Shown here in pieces: positions 33,908 to 35,663 of a stretch of DNA of 36,797 nt; the stretch's first letter is position 1, and the number at the start of each line of letters is the position of its first letter. Origin of the DNA: Actinomycetota bacterium. Lineage in GTDB: Bacteria > Actinomycetota > Acidimicrobiia > Acidimicrobiales > Ilumatobacteraceae. The position numbers and the translations under genes were made by a program. The DNA lies in NCBI GenBank assembly GCA_027731085.1, contig JAQCDG010000001.1, positions 69,179-105,975 of the forward strand, in the 5' to 3' direction. The notes beneath the pieces are model-generated. The model made no database searches and had not been told where the DNA came from. It saw only the letters and a list, made by a program, of their open reading frames with translations.

Positions 33908-34882
33908 TTAATTACCAACTTCAACAAGTGTTTTTTCAATTACACGCATTCGCGCTGATTTAGCGCGACGATTAAGTGTCTGCTCTTTGCTTGACGGATA
34001 CTTTGGTGCTCGAACACGGCGAGTGCGGCGCACGCCCGATTGTGATTCGTGAACATACGGCGATGCGTGGGTCGATTCGTTGGCGTCGCGCTCAGAATCA
34101 GAGAACACGCGCTTGACGATGCGATTTTCACCCGAGTGATATGTCAGCACGGCGACTCGACCGCCAGATTTGGTCGCGTCGATTGCGATCTGTAACGCAC
34201 GCTCAAGAATCTCTAGTTCTTTGTTGACTTCAATTCGAATTGCTTGAAAAGTTCGCTTAGCTGGATGCCCACCAGTTCGACGCGCCGGAGCAGGAATTGC
34301 CGCGACTATCACTTCGGCAAGTTGTGTAGTCGTAGTAATCGGTCGAGCAGCCACGATTGCCTTGGCGATTCGACGGGCAAACTTCTCATCGGCGTTGTCG
34401 GCAATCAGTCTCGACAGTTCTGACTCGTCATAATTATTGACGACTTCAGCGGCACTCAGTTGACTGCGCTGATCCATACGCATGTCGAGAGGACCTTCGT
34501 GACGATACGAAAAGCCGCGTTCAGCAACATCTAACTGCGGCGAAGAAACACCTAAGTCAAACAATGCACCTGAAATCTCATTAATCGATAGTTCTTCGAG
34601 AACTTCATCAAGCGAATCGAATCGCACACGACGAACCGTGAGACGACCCTGCAGACTTGAGTCTTCGGCGATCAGTCTTTCGGCGTTGGCGATCGCATCG
34701 GCGTCTTGATCAAGTCCGAGGATTTGCAAGTTCGGATATGCATTGAGTATCGCCACGGCATGACCGCCAAGGCCAAATGTTGCATCAACGACGACGCCTT
34801 CTGGCACCGAAGCGAAGCACTCAACGATTTCATCGATCATTACTGGCAGATGCGAACTGACGTGTGAATTTTGATTTGTCAT
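33908..34882 (-). CDS. rsmH: 16S rRNA m4C1402 methyltransferase RsmH (MraW)
   Basis: RsmH methylates N4 of C1402 in 16S rRNA using S-adenosylmethionine. The 324-residue protein has HLPVMIDEIVE at the N-terminus, the SAM-binding VVDATFGLGGHA at 31-42, ALFDLGVSSPQLDVAERGFS and the C-terminal TYHSGENRIVKRVF, all family-diagnostic. The ATG at 34882 is required because the next in-frame Met would remove HLPV. No Shine-Dalgarno sequence precedes it: the leader reads GCGCAAUAUAU before AUG, and the upstream 215 bp form strong RNA structure (see findings). Confidence 0.96.
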   Translation of the reverse strand: MTNQNSHVSSHLPVMIDEIVECFASVPEGVVVDATFGLGGHAVAILNAYPNLQILGLDQDADAIANAERLIAEDSSLQGRLTVRRVRFDSLDEVLEELSINEISGALFDLGVSSPQLDVAERGFSYRHEGPLDMRMDQRSQLSAAEVVNNYDESELSRLIADNADEKFARRIAKAIVAARPITTTTQLAEVIVAAIPAPARRTGGHPAKRTFQAIRIEVNKELEILERALQIAIDATKSGGRVAVLTYHSGENRIVKRVFSDSERDANESTHASPYVHESQSGVRRTRRVRAPKYPSSKEQTLNRRAKSARMRVIEKTLVEVGN

Positions 34883-34898
34883 ATATATTGCGCAACTT

Positions 34899-35067
34899 GC
34901 AAACTGTCACTATTCGATGCCTCGCTTATCAGCAGCCCCCCGGCCAACGGTGCCTCCGGGATTTCTCCCCGGATAGCGAGATGGAAAGCGGGCGGAGTTG
35001 GGGGCTATCCATCTTGTTAACCGGGAGACTGCTGATAAGCGAAACTTGTGCAACTTGTGACAGTTGC
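34899..35067 (-). ncRNA. candidate structured leader RNA between mraZ and rsmH
   Basis: Nested inverted repeats show a large fold in the mraZ-rsmH mRNA. The outer helix pairs 34902-34910 with 35057-35065 (9 bp perfect, plus GC beyond a bulge). The second helix pairs 34922-34935 with 35029-35042 (14 bp perfect). Inside, 35021-35028 pairs with 34964-34972 (8 bp, one bulge) and 34979-34985 pairs with 35008-35014 (7 bp). GGGGG at 34936-34940 could pair with the CCCCC in the RNA loop at 35000-35004, giving a pseudoknot. A cis-regulatory 'mraW RNA' motif has been described upstream of rsmH in actinobacteria; whether this is that family cannot be judged without a covariance search. A mobile palindromic element is the alternative. 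Confidence 0.6.
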
Positions 35068-35097
35068 GAAAAGTTTGTTGCTTGGCCCCCTTTCGCT

Positions 35098-35511
35098 TTA
35101 CTCGGTGCCAGCTAGTTCCTGCGTGCCAGAGTCGCTGATGCGCTGGTGGCGCTCTGGATCCCAAATTTCAACCCGATCAAATGAACCGCTGACAATCACG
35201 CGCGAATTAAGTTCGAGGCCCGCGTATTGACGCAATTTTTCGTCGACATTGATACGACCTTGAGCATCAACAGATACTTCAACCATGTTCGACGACAACG
35301 CTCGCTGTTCTTTGCGATCCATTTCGCCGCGACGAACTTTTTCCATTACATCGTTGGCAACTGCCAAGAAAGTCTCAGTCGTCAAAACATCGACGCACTT
35401 GTCTCGACCCAGAGCCAAATAACATTTCGGCTCGAACTTCGGCCGAAAGGATGCAGGCAAGGCGATACGACCCTTTGGGTCCAACTGCCGCTCATGCGCA
35501 CCTACAAACAC
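35098..35511 (-). CDS. mraZ: MraZ, transcriptional regulator of the dcw cluster
   Basis: MraZ is an AbrB-like (SpoVT/AbrB fold) ring-forming DNA-binding protein that usually represses its own dcw operon. The 137-residue form begins VFVGAHERQLDPKGRIALPA, matching the family's MFxG...LDxKGR start, and carries the second repeat VDAQGRINVDEKLRQYAGL. I choose GTG 35511, because GCGGAGGA, an almost ideal ribosome binding site, lies 3-10 bases before it. The longer frame from TTG 35532 would put that site inside the coding region. Its probable operator and promoter lie just upstream (35582-35637). It is the first gene of the dcw run. Confidence 0.94.
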   Translation of the reverse strand: MFVGAHERQLDPKGRIALPASFRPKFEPKCYLALGRDKCVDVLTTETFLAVANDVMEKVRRGEMDRKEQRALSSNMVEVSVDAQGRINVDEKLRQYAGLELNSRVIVSGSFDRVEIWDPERHQRISDSGTQELAGTE

Positions 35512-35530
35512 TGTTCCTCCGCTTTGTCCC

Positions 35531-35555
35531 AAAACCCCGTTATTTACTGGGTTTT
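35531..35555 (-). repeat. hairpin in the mraZ leader
   Basis: AAAACCC (35531-35537) and GGGTTTT (35549-35555) form a 7-bp stem with an 11-base loop, in the 5' untranslated region just before the mraZ ribosome binding site (about 35514-35522). It may affect mraZ translation. It is not followed by a U-tract on the minus strand, so it is not a terminator for the cluster. Confidence 0.5.
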
Positions 35556-35581
35556 AGAGCTCTCCCTAAATCCCAACAATG

Positions 35582-35610
35582 ACTATATCCCCACTACCCC
35601 CCACTGTCAA
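35582..35610 (-). promoter_or_regulatory. sigma70-type promoter of mraZ and the dcw cluster
   Basis: On the minus strand a perfect -35 TTGACA (35610-35605) is followed by a 17-base spacer and TATAGT (35587-35582), 5 of 6 matches to TATAAT. The predicted start of transcription is near 35574, giving a leader of about 62 bases before the mraZ GTG. This is the best promoter match in the window, and the MraZ-type boxes run through it. Confidence 0.85.
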
Positions 35611-35637
35611 ACACCTTTCACCACTTTTCCCCACTTT
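35591..35637 (-). promoter_or_regulatory. array of five MraZ-type boxes at exact 10-bp period
   Basis: Reading the minus strand, AAAGTGG, AAAGTGG, AAGGTGT, ACAGTGG and GTAGTGG follow one another, each 7-mer separated by 3 bases. Their plus-strand starts are 35631, 35621, 35611, 35601 and 35591. Published MraZ sites are direct repeats with one-helical-turn spacing (AAAGTG[T/G] with 3-base spacers in mollicutes; TGGG-type repeats in E. coli). Boxes 4 and 5 overlap the -35 element and spacer, so MraZ binding should block RNA polymerase. The operator role is inferred; the repeats are directly visible. Confidence 0.85.
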
Positions 35638-35645
35638 TTGGGATA

Positions 35646-35663
35646 TTTTTGGGCAGCCAAAAA
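35646..35663. repeat. AT-tailed inverted repeat between the lipoate-ligase-like gene and mraZ
   Basis: TTTTTGG and CCAAAAA are separated by GCAG. It lies 39 bases after the stop of the lipoate-ligase-like gene and just upstream of the MraZ boxes. The stem is AU-rich and its 3' side on the minus strand is A-rich rather than U-rich, so it is at best a weak terminator. It may mark the upstream border of the operator. Confidence 0.4.

Follow-up and report, generated by a model that had tools for sequence, protein, structure and literature searches.

Analysis of a 36,797-nucleotide stretch of DNA (the window) revealed that the gap between mraZ and rsmH encodes a leader RNA which, judged by strong covariation among relatives, is real, occurs across the class Acidimicrobiia (hereafter the class) and is apparently uncatalogued. 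It consists of a long helix, P1, with two apical hairpins, and comparative evidence shows that the 3′ strand of P1 forms the rsmH ribosome-binding site in many lineages. We consider it likely that this leader acts in cis to control, independently of mraZ, the translation of rsmH and with it probably also, by a polar effect, the expression of the division genes that come next; translational control via P1 is the best-supported mechanism, and a control by RsmH feedback appears possible. The element represents a well-supported family of structured RNAs that has no entry in Rfam 15 and heads a highly conserved division and cell-wall operon across a class of environmental bacteria and would provide a concrete way to set rsmH and the dcw genes apart from the probably co-transcribed mraZ.

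According to the ORFs of the window, mraZ (35098-35532) and rsmH (33908-34882) lie on the minus strand and are followed in this orientation by an ftsL-like ORF, ftsI, murE, mraY and murD. Further downstream, adjoining dcw ORFs abut or overlap to within about 3 nt, which makes the 215-nt gap between mraZ and rsmH exceptional, in agreement with a preliminary description of this DNA, which had also reported two perfect inverted repeats. Both were found at the positions given there: one of 14 bp (34922-34935/35029-35042), which G-U pairs lengthen into the approximately 30-bp stem P1, and one of 9 bp (34902-34910/35057-35065), which forms an outer helix, P0. Folding of the minus strand of the gap, in which position k corresponds to window position 35098-k, yielded −103.7 kcal/mol (z = −8.57), a stability reached by none of 200 shuffles, while the plus strand folded more weakly (−82.7, z = −5.24). 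Since the minus strand encodes mraZ, rsmH and the dcw genes, its transcript is the RNA to be considered, and a plus-strand reading was dropped on account of its lower stability and the orientation of the operon. The following features, all on the minus strand, were assigned.

34883-35097 (−): the whole mraZ-rsmH leader or intercistronic region, 215 nt, delimited by the ORFs and marked by its fold
34919-35045 (−): conserved core, a P1-P2-P3 three-way junction, matched by covariance model R1 with 140.4 bits (E = 4.9e-31)
35016-35045 (−): 5′ strand of P1, 30 nt, pyrimidine-rich, pairing with the strand that holds the Shine-Dalgarno sequence and start
34919-34948 (−): 3′ strand of P1, holding the ancestral rsmH ribosome-binding site, as indicated by covariation and by start codons in relatives
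34979-35014 (−): hairpin P2, bearing the conserved loop; 3 pairs double-changed, 94.8% of cells paired
34988-34997 (−): near-invariant, mostly unpaired loop CUCCGCCCGC on P2 (conservation across 100 loci); base 34992 is the equivalent of 16S C1402
34952-34977 (−): hairpin P3 (GGGGAGAAAUCCC), lost in several families (alignment A2; absent in L083, L110, L124, L126 and L130)
35057-35065 (−): 5′ strand of P0, the outer helix in the window's genus; 11 double-changed cells vs 2.8 in shuffles, 88% paired
34902-34910 (−): 3′ strand of P0, with the same covariation, 20-28 nt ahead of where rsmH now starts
34936-34941 (−): GGGGGG, the rsmH Shine-Dalgarno sequence in relatives that start inside P1
34927-34929 (−): AUA, a vestigial start where relatives have the rsmH AUG (e.g. 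CUGCUG|AUGAGCGAG in L053 vs CUGCUG AUAAGCGAG in the window)
34880-34882 (−): present rsmH start codon, judged from ORFs and sequence, with no evident Shine-Dalgarno sequence

The core thus comprises P1 topped by the hairpins P2 and P3, and support for P0 as a genus-level outer helix is moderate. A 5′ hairpin, GCAAC/GUUGC (35063-35067/35050-35054, minus strand), overlaps P0 and is mutually exclusive with it; it is kept in the genus, where no covariation of this hairpin was found, and a switch between the two structures is only a possibility. The GGGGG/CCCCC pseudoknot proposed in the preliminary description was abandoned, as GGGGG belongs to the constant strand of P1 and sister species have CACCC, CUCCC or CACUC in place of CCCCC with no compensatory change.

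Using R1, built from 17 relatives, the element was detected in 181 of 296 Acidimicrobiia genomes (114 of 149 genera), and in 199 genomes sampled evenly over the phylum nine matches were obtained, all within the class and none outside. Each of the 114 loci fetched had mraZ upstream and rsmH downstream. All 25 relatives examined within the genus and three members of the same family (L027, L029, L030) have both the gap and its structure, but a fourth (L028) does not. Twenty class genomes that gave no R1 match mostly had short gaps (11-160 nt) devoid of the element, although three of the twenty (L182, L183, L186) proved to be divergent members detectable with filters off. Several genera of the same family and order (L167-L179, L184) have lost the element, with mraZ and rsmH just 11-160 nt apart. 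A scan of viral contigs gave no relative of the element. Seven public MAG records (L230, L231, L235, L237, L238, L240, L242) titled Bifidobacterium breve or Ferrithrix thermotolerans carry an rsmH 76-86% identical to that of the window's genus, and their titles appear to be wrong.

Compensatory changes in relatives, the check suggested in the preliminary description, turned out to be abundant. In the structure-blind MAFFT alignment A2, 97.8% of cells were paired and 18 pairs were double-changed, compared with 4.4 in shuffles. The second structure-blind MAFFT alignment, A5, which spans the class with 39 diverse members, gave 263 double-changed cells for P1 vs 84.6 in shuffles, distributed over 27 of 29 pairs, and 92% of P1 cells were paired vs 32-47% with slid partners. 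An absence of covariation, which had been named as evidence against the RNA, is thus clearly not what the relatives display. Furthermore, G-U pairs exceeded A-C mismatches in P1 (219:78), P2 (107:13) and P3 (91:36) among the non-training rows, a ratio somewhat favoured by an alignment fitted to the model, and the sense fold was more stable than the antisense fold in 79 of 100 loci, both of which indicate that the element acts as an RNA of the rsmH strand.

These observations also bear on the idea that the perfect inverted repeats represent a mobile palindrome or the conserved DNA site of a protein rather than an RNA, which we regard as extremely improbable in view of the covariation, the large excess of sense-strand G-U pairs over A-C mismatches and the invariable location at the mraZ-rsmH locus. 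In the window genome, a 1.53-Mb metagenome-assembled genome of 160 contigs, a search located the element sequence only once, so that the scattering of the palindrome over unrelated loci, earlier considered as a sign of a mobile repeat, does not apply. In L044 (622-672), both strands of a perfect 25-bp hairpin whose loop is 1 nt long obtain good scores with hairpin models. Although the element is crossed by open frames (e.g. 34910-35164), a leader peptide or other coding function was rejected, because the RNA motif persists in spite of frame-shifting 1-nt loop indels (L001 vs L012 and L030) and because wobble positions are invariant as well.

The position of the rsmH start relative to P1 points to function. 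Of 100 aligned loci, 22 have their sole in-frame rsmH start within the 3′ strand of P1, where it is preceded by a GGGG or GAGGGG Shine-Dalgarno sequence at a constant distance of 6 nt from the AUG or GUG (e.g. CCGGGGGACUGCUG|AUGAGCGAGAUCCACGAACC and CGAGGGGCUGCGG|AUGAGCCAGGUG), so that the helix buries the entire ribosome-binding site. The P1 pairs 24-120 and 25-119 of A5 are less variable on the Shine-Dalgarno strand than on the partner strand (entropy 0.39 vs 0.94 and 0.78). Another 69 loci, that of the window among them, start rsmH downstream of P1, and 9 are ambiguous; direct hiding of the start is thus not universal. Sequestration of the ribosome-binding site, by which autogenous leaders are recognized, is accordingly seen in 22 loci; the genus of the window does not show it, the old AUG having become AUA there and rsmH now starting 36 nt downstream of the element. 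Where the start lies inside P1, the folded helix would hide both the Shine-Dalgarno sequence and the rsmH start codon and, as P1 is very stable, the default state would be OFF and something must open P1. In the window's genus, with the start 36 nt further downstream, P0 would pair the region just upstream of it. A purine-rich GGGGG/GGGAGG run just past the mraZ stop (about 35083-35094, minus strand), which is kept in the genus, resembles a Shine-Dalgarno sequence without a start codon and is possibly a ribosome standby site or a remnant.

A near-perfect helix of about 30 bp in an intercistronic gap is a typical substrate of RNase III. P1 has precisely this form, its pairing is kept while its sequence varies freely, and loci with the rsmH start downstream of P1 would be well accommodated if the helix were mainly a processing site separating an mraZ part from an rsmH-ftsLI-mur part of unequal stability. 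However, this main rival leaves unexplained both the near-invariant unpaired loop and the 22 loci in which P1 holds the Shine-Dalgarno sequence and the start codon, and we consider it possible, though on balance unlikely, as the principal role of the helix; processing and translational control could also act jointly.

Translational control through P1 calls for a factor that opens the helix, and the loop CUCCGCCCGC would be a plausible docking site for a trans-acting protein by which the equilibrium of closed and open states would be shifted. Its positions 1-4 and 6 are identical in 100 of 100 loci and the remaining ones in 95-99, figures that lean high because R1 prefers loci having the motif, and the flanks vary freely. 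Positions 1-8 are mostly predicted to be unpaired. The loop is retained in families without P3, for which reason a pairing between loop and P3 was rejected. The window genome has a single copy of the motif, as have nearly all genomes of its genus, so that no regulon is marked by it in these genomes.

The loop contains CCGCCCG, which is identical to positions 1399-1405 of the 16S rRNA of this class around C1402 (9 of 11 bases overall), and the C1402-equivalent residue is among the invariant loop bases, whereas loop positions 5, 7 and 8 vary and 16S does not. This likeness is only borderline, with composition-preserving shuffles giving p = 0.04-0.07 near C1402 and p = 0.14-0.42 for the whole 16S rRNA. 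A second 16S-like match, UAACAAG (1498-1504), was dropped since it is limited to the window's genus, and pairing of the loop to 16S rRNA was rejected as well, the longest antisense run of 8-9 being no better than in shuffles. C1402 is the residue whose N4 is methylated by RsmH, which reportedly requires the assembled 30S subunit and not naked 16S rRNA (PMC5053481), while its human homologue METTL15 bound short RNAs at micromolar affinity with no sequence specificity (PMC10828496).

With less certainty, the docking protein may be RsmH itself, recognizing the copy of its 16S target, in which case binding would exert a negative feedback as in ribosomal-protein leaders. In its full form, this proposal states that RsmH represses its own translation throughout the class by binding, and perhaps methylating, a C1402 decoy on its mRNA leader, thereby linking late 30S maturation to the division cluster. 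We put it forward tentatively, as a rather doubtful scenario and the most interesting live hypothesis, not as something shown. Were RsmH the regulator, rRNA mimicry would couple the maturation of ribosomes to the expression of division genes; such a feedback for any rRNA methyltransferase is not described in the literature searched, nor did we find an account there of an Acidimicrobiia rsmH leader or of RsmH autoregulation. Ribosomal-protein leaders with rRNA mimicry, as portrayed for autogenous translational control in the Meyer 2018 review cited in PMC11109978, share a hidden ribosome-binding site with this element and perhaps also an unpaired conserved motif resembling the rRNA site of the encoded protein; here, in contrast, the encoded protein is an rRNA methyltransferase, the mimicry extends over just 7 contiguous bases and binding is putative. 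Another structured dcw-operon RNA, UpsM of Rhodobacter sphaeroides, differs in position and organism, being described in PMC5089854 as part of an extended 5′ leader with an sRNA ahead of the whole dcw cluster.

The closest known relative in terms of location is mraW RNA (RF01746; Weinberg et al. 2010, PMC2864571), which shares the position between mraZ and mraW/rsmH, the occurrence in Actinomycetota, a long stem and a C-rich apical loop. It is a single long hairpin with the apical loop ACUUCCCC found in Actinomycetales, whereas the Acidimicrobiia element is a three-way junction with loop ACUCCGCCCGC and the conserved motif CUCCGCCCGC. An alignment of the loops ACUCCGCCC and ACUUCCCC requires one gap and one transition, and the two RNAs, each located before rsmH and each with a C-rich loop, may share an origin or a function. 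The preliminary description had left the choice between a divergent mraW RNA and a new leader. The Rfam search it recommended gave no match in the window, where RF01746 (gathering threshold 50 bits) had none even at E≤10, nor did RF01746 match any of 13 relatives at E≤1 to 10 or any class genome in a 101-genome sample of the phylum, where its matches fell in other families. Conversely, RF01746 members reached only 12-19 bits with R1, which gave 33 bits to a perfect hairpin of no relation. To our knowledge, mraW RNA has had no functional test. Membership in the mraW family is thus improbable despite the shared place, phylum and general shape, and the option of a new cis-acting leader, after mraZ, before rsmH and with compensatory changes, has held. 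For Corynebacterium glutamicum and C. diphtheriae, the start of rsmH transcription has been placed inside the mraW motif or downstream of it (PMC3890552, PMC5784534), which leaves the mechanism of the mraW family itself unsettled.

In the gap studied here, no terminator-like site (hairpin plus U tract) and no internal promoter-like site were detected on the sense strand, while a promoter, TTGACA-17-TATAGT (11/12), lies upstream of mraZ (35582-35610, minus strand). The leader is therefore probably transcribed together with mraZ and would act at the level of translation or RNA processing; the earlier suggestion that it sets the dcw genes apart from mraZ is borne out as far as position is concerned. 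Sensing of a wall precursor, likewise suggested earlier, found no support. A conserved unpaired junction loop before a division and cell-wall operon could be expected of a metabolite riboswitch with the P2/P3 domain as aptamer, but the conserved part amounts to a single simple hairpin loop, several families do without P3 and the junction, and a terminator is missing, all of which renders such a riboswitch very unlikely. The spacer of the mraZ promoter is GTGGGGGGTAGTGGGGA, and more TGGG repeats occur nearby (about 35555-35660); together, these look like MraZ boxes overlapping the mraZ promoter, as would suit autorepression.
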